A stretch of 64,000 bases of DNA from positions 1 to 64,000 of the forward strand of contig CAJXVM010000021.1 of assembly GCA_913061095.1 (NCBI GenBank). The letters run 5' to 3'. Source of the stretch: an uncultured Ignavibacteria bacterium. GTDB taxonomy: Bacteria > Bacteroidota > Ignavibacteria > SZUA-365. Shown here one piece after another: positions 1-5,205 of this stretch. A program made the translations under genes and the position numbers. The notes under the pieces are model-generated. The model was not told the origin of the DNA and ran no database searches. It saw nothing but the letters and a program-made list of their open reading frames with translations. Each line of letters begins with the position of its first letter. Position 1 is the stretch's first letter.

Positions 1-88
1 CCTGACGGTCCGTCTGGGCGGAGAGCTGGGGCAGGAGGCCTGCAACGAGCGCCACAACGAGGAAGGCACGTAAAATGTGTTTGCTCAT
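1..88 (-). CDS. Partial exported protein cut by the window edge (possible GldN position)
   Basis: Only the first 29 codons are present; the gene runs off the left edge. The peptide starts MSKHILRAFLVVALVAG and ends its hydrophobic stretch with an LSAQ-type cleavage site, so it is a typical signal peptide. A ribosome site (GAGG, 7 bases before ATG) fixes the start. It lies 62 bases downstream of a GldM-like gene on the same strand. In known T9SS operons the order is gldK-gldL-gldM-gldN, and GldN is exported, so position and signal peptide fit GldN. That identity is inference from position only; any exported protein would look the same. Confidence 0.6.
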   Translation of the reverse strand, partial: MSKHILRAFLVVALVAGLLPQLSAQTDRQ

Positions 89-150: not shown

Positions 151-1758
151 TCAATCTGGTTGATAGACCCTGATGGGCCACCTCTGATTAATATTGCCAT
201 ATCGAATTGAGATTGTAGCATCAGTGCCATCAGAGGATACTCTTCCACTGAGATAGAACTTCACGCTCGTACCTCGATGGTTCCCATTTGTTGGATTAGT
301 TGTCTCAAGTGGTACAACTTCGTCAAGCAAATCTTGACCATCCGCTGATTCAACCTCTATTCGAATTTCTGAGGGGGGTATGTTTTCGATATTTGCCCCA
401 ATACACCTACCACATCGAGCAGCAATGAAGCTGAACTCCTGGTTGATCGCGTATTCCTGACCTCTCTGCCAATTCTCCGCAACCAGGCGATCTACTGGTG
501 CGCTAACACTGAAAAGGAATTCAGAGGTTGTCAAGTTCTCGGCAGTTGAGTCAAGCAATACTTGATATACTCGACCCCTATATTTGGAAGATATGGTCAT
601 CGATTGACCCAAAGCATCCTCCGGCACCATGTACTTGACAACGTTGCCAGTGCCACTTTCTACCTCGTTGCCATCCATCTCGATCGTCCAGCTGTAGGAA
701 CCGACATCTTCAAGACCCGCGACGTTGACGTACATTTCGAACAGCTCGCCGGCAAAGGCGCCGCCGGGCTTATTGCGGCTCAGGAACGGCCGCTTGACTT
801 CCACGTCGAAGGTTTTCGGCCGTGAAACACTCTTCGGACCGGCCTGGCGGTTGTCCCGCGCATCGACCGTGATCGTATAGGTCCCCGGCTCGTTAAAGGT
901 ATTCGACCATACCCATCTACCACGTTCAGGATCTTCGCTGGAATATGGATTGCGTTCATTTGTTGGGCCAAGCGCAATTCCACCCCCTACTACGTTCATA
1001 TTGGTAACCTTGTCCACCGTCGTGCCGCGTACCTTGACCTCGTTGAACGTGGGGAATCCGACCGCCGTAATGATTGGATCCGCCTGGATCTGCAGCTGAT
1101 CGTATTCCTCGGAGACGACCTCGACGATGAACTTGTCGGGATTGAGGTTTTCACTCTGTTCGATGAAGTGCTCAACCGGCGTTCCCTTCAGGTCCGGATC
1201 GGAATCGAGAGCCGTTCGGATTTCATCACGGGAGAACTCGAGGGTACCGACCTTGATCTTGGCCTTGCCTTCCTCGATATCCGGCGTGAGTGACACGCGG
1301 TTCGTCCCGGCCTCGACCCAGAGTTCATAGGTGCCGGCCCCGTTGTCCGCCTTCCAGGTAAAGCGGTACAGCCGCTCGCCGGTGGCGCCGTGGACGACGG
1401 AATCCTGGATCTGCTCGGGATAGCGCAGCGTTTCGACCTCGGTGCCATCCTTGAACACCTTCACCTCGGGCGGCGTGGTGACTTCGTCCTGCTCACCGAG
1501 ACCCTTGACATTAATGGTGAACTTGCGCTCTTCACCGACCTTGAGCTGGTTGTCGCCCGCCGCAGCAACGGCCGGCATGTTCTTCAGCAGCTCAAGAATG
1601 ATTTTACGGTTCTTTTCTTCCAGCATCCGCTGTTGCATCAGCAGGTCTGCCTCCGCATCATCGCGCTCGACGATGATGATGAGCAGCTCGCATATCACAG
1701 CCAGATACAGGAAGAAGTACACCTGATATTTCTTATAGACATCGGCAGTTTGTGCCAT
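151..1758 (-). CDS. GldM-like T9SS motor protein, second copy
   Basis: 535 residues, close to the usual GldM length of about 515. A short cytoplasmic start is followed by one membrane helix (about residues 11-30), a charged coiled stretch (30-60) and a long periplasmic part of repeated beta-rich domains. This is the GldM plan: GldM spans the envelope from the GldL motor to the outer-membrane ring and passes on proton-motive force. The third domain (PFL, AGE, V-x-GLED, YSWT motifs) matches the same segment of the GldM-like protein at 2882-4390, so the two are paralogues. AAGGAGG lies before the ATG. It follows a GldL-like gene by 47 bases. The last third of the gene (151 to about 650) is clearly AT-richer than the rest. 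No overall sequence match could be run, so the family call rests on architecture, pairing and length. Confidence 0.6.
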   Translation of the reverse strand: MAQTADVYKKYQVYFFLYLAVICELLIIIVERDDAEADLLMQQRMLEEKNRKIILELLKNMPAVAAAGDNQLKVGEERKFTINVKGLGEQDEVTTPPEVKVFKDGTEVETLRYPEQIQDSVVHGATGERLYRFTWKADNGAGTYELWVEAGTNRVSLTPDIEEGKAKIKVGTLEFSRDEIRTALDSDPDLKGTPVEHFIEQSENLNPDKFIVEVVSEEYDQLQIQADPIITAVGFPTFNEVKVRGTTVDKVTNMNVVGGGIALGPTNERNPYSSEDPERGRWVWSNTFNEPGTYTITVDARDNRQAGPKSVSRPKTFDVEVKRPFLSRNKPGGAFAGELFEMYVNVAGLEDVGSYSWTIEMDGNEVESGTGNVVKYMVPEDALGQSMTISSKYRGRVYQVLLDSTAENLTTSEFLFSVSAPVDRLVAENWQRGQEYAINQEFSFIAARCGRCIGANIENIPPSEIRIEVESADGQDLLDEVVPLETTNPTNGNHRGTSVKFYLSGRVSSDGTDATISIRYGNINQRWPIRVYQPD

Positions 1759-1805
1759 AGTGAATACTCCTCCTTATGACTTGGTGGCGTTCATGCGTGG
1801 ACTGC

Positions 1806-2645
1806 TTACTGACGCATGCCGGATTCGGAACGGACAGAGGTCTCGAGCTCGTCTTTGAGCGCATCGAGGCGCCGCTCGACTTCGGCGAGGGTCAGTTGCT
1901 TGCCGGGCATGCCTGCACCGGCGCCGGCTTCCTCTTCCTCTTCCTTCTCGTACCACGTCGTCAGACCGAGCAGAAGAAGCACGGTGATTTCGACGGCGAT
2001 GGCGATGACGATCAGGTCAGGCTGATGCGCGGTCATGAACTTCACACCGCGGAGACCAATGTTGAGGATCAGGAAGGCCGTACCAATGAACGCAATGGCC
2101 GTGATATTGTTCTTGTACTCGGGAATGAATTCGTTGTGCATGTACAGCGCGAAGGCCTGACGGACGCTCTTCTCGCGCTGCAGCCATTTCTTCGGCTCCT
2201 TCATGAGATGCTCACCGAACTTGTTGGATAACCCGGTACCCTTGAGAACCGCTCCCACAAAGGCGTGCAAACTGCCGCGGAAGAGGAACAGTCCGATAGG
2301 AGTGAAGAAGAAGATGACGACGACAAAGGCAATCAGAATCACCAGGTTGATCGCAAACATGTTCAGGATGAAGGTCGAGTTCCCGATTTTGAACACAAAC
2401 TCGGTGTTGAACAGATTTGCAAAATATCCACCGGGAGATTCGCGAATGGTTTCGAGTTCGGTATGAGTCAGCTGACTGAGATCACGTCCCCGACCCTCGT
2501 CGCGCAGAAAACGCTTCATTTCTTCGAGCGTTTTCATGTCTTCGCCGCTGTGCTGCGCCGTTGCGATGGGCGCTGCAAACGCGAACAGAACGGCAACGAG
2601 CAGTGTACCGAACATCATGTGGCGAATGAATCCACTTCTCTTCAT
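1806..2645 (-). CDS. GldL-like membrane protein, second copy, with extra N-terminal export region
   Basis: 279 residues. A signal peptide (about 10-31, ending ATAQ) and a soluble stretch precede a membrane helix at about 94-122. Two more helices follow at about 181-204 and 209-230, then an acidic, coiled tail. The last helix carries a buried glutamate (E219, in IAIAVEITVLLLL). GldL, the proton-driven motor of T9SS, likewise has two helices with an essential glutamate in the second, then a cytoplasmic coiled coil. The extra signal peptide and helix are not normal for GldL. AGGAGG sits 8 bases before ATG. The 236 bases upstream separate this pair from the first GldL/GldM pair, so it may be its own transcription unit. 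Alternative: an unrelated multi-pass protein in a T9SS cluster. Confidence 0.5.
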   Translation of the reverse strand: MKRSGFIRHMMFGTLLVAVLFAFAAPIATAQHSGEDMKTLEEMKRFLRDEGRGRDLSQLTHTELETIRESPGGYFANLFNTEFVFKIGNSTFILNMFAINLVILIAFVVVIFFFTPIGLFLFRGSLHAFVGAVLKGTGLSNKFGEHLMKEPKKWLQREKSVRQAFALYMHNEFIPEYKNNITAIAFIGTAFLILNIGLRGVKFMTAHQPDLIVIAIAVEITVLLLLGLTTWYEKEEEEEAGAGAGMPGKQLTLAEVERRLDALKDELETSVRSESGMRQ

Positions 2646-2881
2646 AAGGGTATCCTCCTAACAAGACATAGGATGAGCGGTCTCCGCATAGAGCGGGACA
2701 CAGTTAATTTGGCTATGTAGAATGCTGTAGTAATAATCAGATTTCTCCGGGCCGGGGGTGCCGGGACGGTACTGATGCGAAGAAACGAAGCGGAGGGTAC
2801 TGTCCGAAGCTCCAATTTCATAACTTGGCACAAATTGCACATATGATGCAACTCCCGCCGGCACAGTATTTGGCACAGTGC

Positions 2882-4390
2882 TCATCGGGTCAGCCTCATC
2901 GTTTCCTGGATAGACGCTTCGGCGGCTTGCACCCGAACGATCACGCGCTCGCCTTCCGGTCGAATCAGGTCCTTGTCCTGAATGACAAATGTGAACTCGC
3001 CCTTGCGGACCATGGAGACATCCGTGCGAATGAGATTGCGTTCCTCGTCGAACAGCTCGACACGAACATCCGACAGTCTGTCGACCGGTTGTTCTCCGCG
3101 GAAGCGTGGGTCCGTATACCGCGAGGCGGAGAAGCGGAAGGTCTCCATGACCGAGGCGCTGGCGGGCAGATCGAGACCGATCTGTATCGGGGGCTGCAGA
3201 ACAGACAGCACGAAATGTGACCTCCCCGCCGCGTTGCTGCGCGAGGATATCCAGCGGTACGGGCGTCCGTCGTATCGGGCATCGACAATGAGCCGTTTCC
3301 CGTCAAAGGAGTTCGGGATCCGGTACTGCACCCGTGGACGCCGACCACGCGACTTCTCTATGAGGTCACCGCCACCGGCATCCTCCGAAAGCGTCCAGGA
3401 ATAGCGCTCCTCATCTTCGAGTCCTTCCACGGCAATGTCAAGGTCCAGATCCTCGCCGGCATACAGCGTCGAGATCAGCGGCGTGCGGAGAAACGGCTGC
3501 ACCCCGGACACCGTGAATCGACCTCTGGCAATATCCTTGCCGCCGGCCTTGCGCTGCAGACGGGCCTCGATGCATATCGTGTCGGGCAACGGCGTGACCG
3601 TCTGTGCCCAGCGGTACATGACAGAGCGGTCGTCGCCCGGCAGTCGCTCGAGGCGGCCGCCACCACAGGTGATCTCCACCCGCGGATCCGACCAGCCGAG
3701 ATTCGTCGTGATCGTGTTGACTTCTTCGAAACCCACCGCCGAAGTGATGTTCTGTCGTTCCACCGTCATCCGAAGTGATTCGAGGGTCTTGACATTCTCC
3801 ACGGAGGTATCGATGACGCGTACCGTCATCGCGATGTCGGAACGCTCGAGTCTGTGTACCATGTCCCGTGACACCAGAGTCGTGTCAAATTGAAGATCCC
3901 TGTAACGGAAGCGGCCGGGCGCGAGTTCGTGCACGCGCCGGCTCTCAGCGGTGAAATTCAGCTGATAGATTCCGGTGCGGGAAAACACCGCCGACACGGG
4001 AAAGTATACGACCCTGTTCTCGATGGGACCGATGGCCGTACGGTTCCCGACGGTCACGATATCTTCAAAGGTAAGGAGTTCATTGAATTTCTTGCTGTGC
4101 AGGCGCAGCTGCACGTCATCATCACTGCCGATATCATGGACGAACACCTTACCGGTGAACAGCGGGAGATCACCGCTGACAATCCCGCTCGAGTCGGCAT
4201 CGACATACCAGCGCACGGTATCCTGCTCGACCGCCATGGGGAGCGGAGGAAGAAACGTGCGGATGATACGTTCGTTGAGCTGCTGCATGCGTTCGTCGCT
4301 TTTATCGCGTTCCTTTGAAACGACGACGAAGCCAATGATCGCCGTCAGATAGAGGATGAAGAAAACATCCACGCGCCTGCGCAGGGCCAC
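2882..4390 (-). CDS. GldM-like T9SS motor protein, first copy
   Basis: 502 residues with one N-terminal membrane helix (about 8-24) after a short Arg-rich start, then only periplasmic beta-type sequence. The translation starts at GTG; GGAGG lies 8 bases upstream and no in-frame ATG fits better. The segment with PFL, AGE, VEGLED and YSWT matches the third domain of the GldM-like protein at 151-1758 and in the same order, which shows common origin although the rest has diverged widely. It follows the GldL-like gene by 53 bases, so the two are probably co-transcribed. Expected role: periplasmic shaft of the T9SS or gliding motor. Family call from architecture and pairing. Confidence 0.6.
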   Translation of the reverse strand: MALRRRVDVFFILYLTAIIGFVVVSKERDKSDERMQQLNERIIRTFLPPLPMAVEQDTVRWYVDADSSGIVSGDLPLFTGKVFVHDIGSDDDVQLRLHSKKFNELLTFEDIVTVGNRTAIGPIENRVVYFPVSAVFSRTGIYQLNFTAESRRVHELAPGRFRYRDLQFDTTLVSRDMVHRLERSDIAMTVRVIDTSVENVKTLESLRMTVERQNITSAVGFEEVNTITTNLGWSDPRVEITCGGGRLERLPGDDRSVMYRWAQTVTPLPDTICIEARLQRKAGGKDIARGRFTVSGVQPFLRTPLISTLYAGEDLDLDIAVEGLEDEERYSWTLSEDAGGGDLIEKSRGRRPRVQYRIPNSFDGKRLIVDARYDGRPYRWISSRSNAAGRSHFVLSVLQPPIQIGLDLPASASVMETFRFSASRYTDPRFRGEQPVDRLSDVRVELFDEERNLIRTDVSMVRKGEFTFVIQDKDLIRPEGERVIVRVQAAEASIQETMRLTR

Positions 4391-4443
4391 GCATCAGACC
4401 TCCGCCGCGCCTGGCTGCGCGACATATGCCATCGATGCGAACA

Positions 4444-5205
4444 TTATTGTTCCTCACTCTGATCGAGGAGGGACAGCATGCGACGTGTCTGCTGGAGACT
4501 CTGCTGCTGCTGCTCAAGCAGCGTCTGAAGCTGTGTGCGCGTCAGTTCGTTCATCTCACGAAGCAGCGCATTCGTCTGTTCGAGCTTTTCCGCGTAGCGG
4601 CGGGTGTTTTCATTGTTGACCTTGCCGAGACTCTCCGTCAGACGGCTGAGGAGAACGTCCTGTCGGATATCGGTCTGCGAGATCAACCGGAACAGGTCGG
4701 AAACAGCGTTGGTCATCTCGTGGATGGACGTGTTGATCGAGCTCAGCAGGTTATCCTGCAGGCCGATCGCCCCGGCCTGCCCGGTACTTTCTTCACTGCG
4801 GCTGTATGCCGTCACGATGGCGAGGGAAAGCAGGAACAGTGCCTCAAGCGCGAGGCCTGCGATCGCATACCACAGCGAATACCCCGCAAGGTACAGCGCC
4901 ACGGTGAGCAGCACGATCATGGCCCCGAAATACACCAGTCCCTGAATGAAATTATAATAGTAGACCCCGACGATTTCCTCGAGAAATACGCGAGTCCCGA
5001 GTTTGAAACCGAGGTTCGTTTCGAAGCGAATCCGGCGGCCGTCACCGAACTGAAGATCCGTCCCCTGCCGGGAAAGTTTCCAGCATTCCAGCAGAGTCTT
5101 GAGCTCCAGGGCATTCTTCACGCGCCTGTCATGATAAAAATCATGCAGAAGCCGACGCCCTTCGATGGTCTCCAGATCCTTGACGGTTTCCGAGGTACTC
5201 AGCAA
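4444..5205 (-). CDS. GldL-like inner-membrane motor protein, first copy
   Basis: 253 residues. About 85 cytoplasmic residues come first, then two membrane helices (about 88-108 and 111-133) and a Gln-rich coiled coil to the end. Helix 2 reads GLALEALFLLSLA, close to the GldL pattern GLxxEAxxFxLSA, with the glutamate (E121) at the place of the proton-carrying glutamate of GldL. Normal GldL starts almost directly with helix 1, so the 85-residue head is an addition. The likely start is TTG at 5205, because a stop lies five codons upstream and no in-frame ATG or GTG is nearby. It heads the minus-strand cluster; no gldK lies upstream. Confidence 0.6.
   Translation of the reverse strand: MLSTSETVKDLETIEGRRLLHDFYHDRRVKNALELKTLLECWKLSRQGTDLQFGDGRRIRFETNLGFKLGTRVFLEEIVGVYYYNFIQGLVYFGAMIVLLTVALYLAGYSLWYAIAGLALEALFLLSLAIVTAYSRSEESTGQAGAIGLQDNLLSSINTSIHEMTNAVSDLFRLISQTDIRQDVLLSRLTESLGKVNNENTRRYAEKLEQTNALLREMNELTRTQLQTLLEQQQQSLQQTRRMLSLLDQSEEQ

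Follow-up and report, generated by a model that had tools for sequence, protein, structure and literature searches.

Two distantly GldLM-like gene pairs in a poorly known T9SS-bearing group of Bacteroidota, the second old and conserved

Described motors and the layout of the locus

In the best-studied organisms secretion and gliding both depend on a single GldLM pair, whose roles in the two are hard to separate. Several ion-driven motors per cell are familiar from the flagellar dual stators (MotAB/PomAB) and from AglRQS. More than one ion-driven motor in a single cell thus has precedent (PMC9389320), but those motors belong to other protein families, and MotA_ExbB is absent from the Pfam matches, taken up to an E-value of 1, of the L proteins described below (L1 and L2). 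In GldLM, a ring of L surrounds two M helices, and protonation of a Glu leads to torque or a conformational change that reaches the outer membrane (PMC8986121, PMC9389320). The second helix of GldL contains an invariant Glu, E49, with an essential role (PMC8986121); GldM has a single N-terminal transmembrane helix, followed by a helical domain D1 and three β-domains (PMC5790014). A survey with profiles for GldJ to GldN, SprA and other components found the T9SS only in Bacteroidetes among the genomes then available (PMC4793230). The open-access literature searched yielded no report of a second GldLM per genome or of GldLM in Ignavibacteria-type lineages, which, with few subscription papers covered, is weak evidence of absence.

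The locus analysed here resembles GldLM/PorLM in that a small hairpin protein with a Glu in its second helix is encoded beside a single-transmembrane, β-rich protein of ~500 aa, in a genome that also has SprA and T9SS cargo signals. It differs in that TIGR03513, TIGR03517 and the Pfam GldL/GldM models do not match its pairs, that two to three pairs occur per genome rather than one, that the first domain of the M2 model is β where that of GldM is helical, and that the transmembrane helix of M1 has a Glu of its own. The window, by which we mean the whole stretch of DNA analysed (64,000 nucleotides from an uncultured Ignavibacteria bacterium), starts with base 1 at the edge of contig 21 in a 4.6 Mb genome and carries, from position 5205 down to 151 of the minus strand, the gene order L2-M2-L1-M1:

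4444..5205, minus strand: L2 (253 aa), the GldL-like membrane protein of pair 2, a two-transmembrane hairpin with a long cytoplasmic coiled-coil tail
4843..4845, minus strand: codon of L2 Glu121, the buried acid in the second transmembrane helix (coordinates computed from the ORF)
2882..4390, minus strand: M2 (502 aa), the GldM-like axle/arm protein of pair 2, with β-domains after a single N-terminal transmembrane helix
2646..2881, minus strand: spacer of 236 bases between pair 2 and pair 1
1806..2645, minus strand: L1 (279 aa), the GldL-like membrane protein of pair 1
1989..1991, minus strand: codon of L1 Glu219, the buried acid in the last transmembrane helix (coordinates computed from the ORF)
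151..1758, minus strand: M1 (535 aa), the GldM-like axle/arm protein of pair 1
1..87, minus strand: start of P1, a gene truncated by the contig end, with signal peptide and predicted outer-membrane barrel

Strong ribosome-binding sites precede both genes of pair 1 (AGGAGG upstream of L1, GGAGGAG upstream of M1), and L2 starts with TTG, as do its relatives. A sequence-only reading of this stretch had described two consecutive L-plus-M pairs, and that description holds: all four ORFs are real, and the window's taxonomic order conserves their arrangement. Of the 15 genomes of the order with this arrangement, 12 have it unbroken on a single contig, and in the other three contig ends interrupt it at the expected place. 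The public records of the relatives are MAGs filed under Bacteroidetes or Ignavibacteria.

Relatives also show what lies beyond the contig edge. Following M1, their pair 1 operon encodes two outer-membrane-barrel-like proteins, P1 and P2, and then a VWA-OmpA protein; P1 is uncut in one of them (L023:9751-11778) and is an outer-membrane-type protein. The two barrel-like followers in L023 have 675 and 579 aa and are homologous to each other in their C-terminal parts (hhalign P=6e-36), and the protein closing the operon (L023:6506-7888) has VWA and OmpA domains in 460 aa. These, and not gldK or gldN, are the neighbours of the pairs, and hhalign comparison of the P1 and P2 barrels with GldN and PorP gave nothing convincing. 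The VWA-OmpA protein is a candidate stand-in for PorE, to which it has a weak match and which likewise has an OmpA domain; it differs from PorE in its N-terminal VWA domain, and its score is far under the PorE cut-off.

Two lineages of L and M genes

By hydropathy scan, M1 and M2 each have a single transmembrane segment (residues 12-30 and 7-25, respectively). Judged by sequence they are paralogues, as had been proposed from the ordered motifs PFL, AGE, GLED, and YSWT: the motifs start at 324, 336, 348, and 355 in M1 and at 299, 311, 323, and 330 in M2, with equal spacing, and the two proteins align over 435 aa with a BLASTP E-value of 4e-23, far above chance. The L proteins had been credited only with a common two-helix-plus-Glu plan, which proved too cautious. 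Pairwise alignment of L1 with L2 gives no match; iterated profiles built from either one recover orthologues of the other, with E-values of 4e-29 and 6e-63, so that L1 and L2 too are paralogues by sequence, visible by profiles only. The scan shows in L2 two transmembrane segments, with E121 inside the second, and in L1 a signal-like N-terminal segment, a transmembrane segment at 96-114, and a hairpin formed by 180-198 and 211-229, with E219 in this last helix. The buried membrane Glu is conserved in 56 of 57 aligned L proteins, the sole exception being the L2 of one genome (G005; L028 11628-12407), which has Gln in its place.

The two pairs are set apart by consistent features of both subunits. 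The hairpin motifs of L2 are consistently distinct from those of L1. The transmembrane motif of M1, VYFxLYLAVIxELLIIIVERD, is common to the M1-like genes of the class, here termed M_A, which in the loci read are followed by the barrels and the VWA-OmpA protein. M1, the M3 described below, and M_A thus share a Glu and the motif ERD, located in or at the transmembrane helix; in M2 and in M_B (the pair-2-type M of other families) the transmembrane Glu is absent, and Glu plus ERD are missing in whole or part. On this sequence evidence the pair 1 and pair 2 motors are consistently different at the axle. In G026 and G023 (L057 8753-10582 and L058 8162-9860), M is apparently split in two, one ORF holding the transmembrane segment plus helix and a separate, secreted ORF holding the C-terminal domains.

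Profiles of L2 type and of M2 type, run over 149 sampled genomes of the class, found their targets in the identical 41 genomes, adjacent to each other in 38 and on different contigs in three. All 41 also have an M1/M_A-type gene. The 15 inside the window's taxonomic order all have M1, and in the 26 outside it M_A lies at a locus apart from pair 2; G017, G020, G027, G030, G036, and G039 provide such separate pair-2 loci. Genomes of family f12 carry M_A and none has pair 2. The probability of the co-occurrence is ~1e-19 if genomes are treated as independent draws, a figure that ignores kinship. In a tree of L proteins, one clade (support 0.918) unites L2 with the pair-2 L proteins from separate loci, and another (support 0.824) unites L1 with the L of a third pair, L3. 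From its class-wide spread, its separate loci, and its own L clade, pair 2 is, as far as sequences tell, an ancient second lineage, and the window's order is the only one in which it adjoins pair 1. We rejected a recent, local duplication in tandem, given the spread of L2-M2 through the class and the old L2 clade. The doubling in tandem, as originally described, therefore applies to the window's order and gives way to separate loci in the 26 genomes outside it.

The window's genome has the third pair at another locus, L026 (G000:C30) 1401-4445:

3534-4445: L3
2923-3537: TPR protein
1401-3005: M3

It is closest to pair 1 (M3 and M1 are 40% identical), and L3 and M3 occur also in G001, G002, G005, and G006. 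L3 is nested inside L1 in the tree, and pair 3 is accordingly, by sequence, a later copy of pair 1. The same genome has in addition an orphan L with no M (L047, G000:C4, 7971-9227), a relative of which in G008 (L053 7293-10521) adjoins an AAA_16 ATPase (PF13191).

These distributions bear on the question, left between two answers by the sequence-only reading, of whether the pairs form separate motors or one mixed motor. In the mixed motor, L1, L2, M1, and M2 would co-assemble, in the manner of a hetero-stator, into one machine in the organisms of the window's order; the preservation of the tandem across that order, with no break other than at contig ends, is what such an assembly would lead one to expect. 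Outside the order, however, the pair-2 genes sit apart from M_A in every one of the 26 genomes, which makes an obligate mixed motor less likely, and there L2 keeps company with M2. The hairpin and transmembrane motifs of L2/M2, consistently unlike those of L1/M1, and the 236-base spacer between the pairs likewise speak for separate assemblies. A mixed motor confined to the window's order seems to us unlikely, if the best placed of the alternatives; an obligate one was judged unlikely given the separate loci.

Relation to GldL, GldM, and the T9SS

The sequence-only reading had likened the four proteins to GldL and GldM, a proposal that is supported in part. Pfam and NCBIfam scans matched neither L1 nor L2 to the GldL models TIGR03513 and PF22827, and neither M1 nor M2 to the GldM models TIGR03517, PF12080, PF12081, PF21601, and PF21602, so that none of the four proteins was recognised by HMM search; the same models do recognise canonical genes. 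The feature marked by E49 in GldL, a two-helix hairpin with a Glu in its second helix, is present in L1 (E219) and in L2 (E121). AlphaFold models of M1 and M2 show one N-terminal helix plus β-domains, and in the AF2 model of M2 β-structure stands at the position of the helical D1 of GldM; M2 thus has the single transmembrane helix and β-domains of the GldM plan without its helical D1. Foldseek searches with the two models, that of M1 being confident only for about residues 320-535, returned generic Ig-type chains and no GldM among the best 50.

Profile comparisons go further for L than for M. An L2-type profile searched against the PDB matched GldL (7sax_C, E=0.003) across the hairpin and the cytoplasmic tail; four designed coiled coils outrank it, no other natural protein stands among the five best matches, and the E-value is marginal and carried in part by coiled-coil composition. 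With a profile of the L core, i.e., the hairpin, GldL was second of 177,635 distinct sequences (E=0.15). In the PDB matches of both profiles the conserved Glu of L aligns with the membrane Glu of GldL. Against the PDB, the profiles of full-length L and of M1 type yielded noise, and that of M2 type had no match. When 155 ORFs from 14 canonical gldKLMN loci were ranked, the L-core profile placed GldL at ranks 1-7, a result that may be helped by GldL being the main two-helix membrane protein in such loci, and the M2 profile placed GldM at ranks 1-3. Direct hhalign comparison of L with GldL was weak, 30 of 150 and 10 of 150 topology-keeping permuted controls reaching the score. M_B scored 37.2 against GldM D2-D3, in collinear register, the maximum in 60 permutations being 26.1. 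Taken together, remote homology of L to GldL is moderately supported at the sequence level, and that of M to GldM more weakly. The four proteins are GldLM-like and lie outside the filed GldL and GldM families; by analogy, they very probably work like GldL and GldM.

SprA scored over cut-off, and T9SS sorting domains (Por_Secre_tail) were found, in all 41 genomes searched at the levels of genus, family, order, and class, the window's genome having at least 107 such domains. Among the 41 relatives searched, none had GldL over cut-off and none had GldN. In a sample of the phylum, GldL scored over cut-off in 14 other genomes, one copy each, within gldK-L-M-N loci. As judged by the GldL and GldN models, the class has a T9SS without a recognised canonical motor, which makes the L/M family the natural candidate. 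On the other hand, SprA and many sorting domains occur in G016, G018, G021, G022, G025, G029, and relatives, yet the profiles used detect no GldL, L, or M there; because of such families, the link of pair 1 to the T9SS rests on its operon context and on the lack of a recognisable canonical motor.

It is conceivable that the L and M proteins are unrelated to GldLM and reached a ring-and-axle plan with Ig-like arms by convergence, to drive a load other than the T9SS. The missing family-model matches and the generic Foldseek results would be natural on that account, as would an L–GldL profile score inside the range of permuted controls. It would leave as coincidence the place of GldL among the leading PDB matches of two L profiles, Glu over Glu, and the lead of GldL and GldM in the canonical ranking, and it would leave T9SS-bearing genomes with no other recognised motor. 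We consider convergence improbable and place it behind the mixed motor.

Possible roles of the two pairs

The account that we favour, as the likelier one, is that the pairs form two distinct GldLM-like motors and that pair 1 is the T9SS motor of the class. Pair 1 (L1-M1) would then be a strongly diverged form of that motor, and pair 2 (L2-M2) a second, old, and dedicated motor whose L and M form a separate lineage. Both motors would have an inner-membrane ring of several L subunits, encircling the two transmembrane helices of dimeric M. Protons passing the buried Glu of L would make M twist or rotate, and through its periplasmic part M would act on a partner in the outer membrane. The Glu and the domain plan can be read from the proteins themselves; ring stoichiometry, proton use, torque, and the machine driven we infer from GldLM. 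On this basis, two distinct machines powered by protons probably operate across the envelope of these cells.

More tentatively, pair 2 may be a separate trans-envelope machine with an outer-membrane load of its own, as opposed to a spare T9SS motor. In two genomes of family f5 (L113, L117), pair 2 has its own P2-like outer-membrane protein encoded next to it or nearby (hhalign P=1e-6), which suggests such a separate load.

Least credence goes to the reading of pair 2 as a regulator or decaying paralogue of the T9SS motor. It could account for the Gln that replaces the buried Glu in the L2 of G005, for the loss in family f1 L2 proteins of the basic RGxK stretch behind the first hairpin helix, and for the lack in M2 and M_B of the transmembrane Glu seen in M1/M_A; against it speak an L2-M2 pair intact in 41 genomes of several families, a Glu retained in nearly all aligned proteins, and the conservation of the long coiled tail of L2.

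If pair 2 is indeed a separate machine with its own load, the class would have two non-interchangeable motors of GldLM type with different outer-membrane tasks, e.g., secretion and surface motion, and these would operate beside further L paralogues, one of them adjoining an AAA ATPase. A clade keeping two distinct motors would offer a natural separation of motor roles. Relatedly, the T9SS motor may have diverged past current family models, and surveys that require gldKLMN would list these genomes as lacking a motor, in spite of their SprA and of the many cargo signals in the window's genome.

Multiple L-M loci per genome, with barrel-like followers, also occur in family f14 (L063 and L106 in G035; L107 in G150), where the multiplication of motors is apparently independent.
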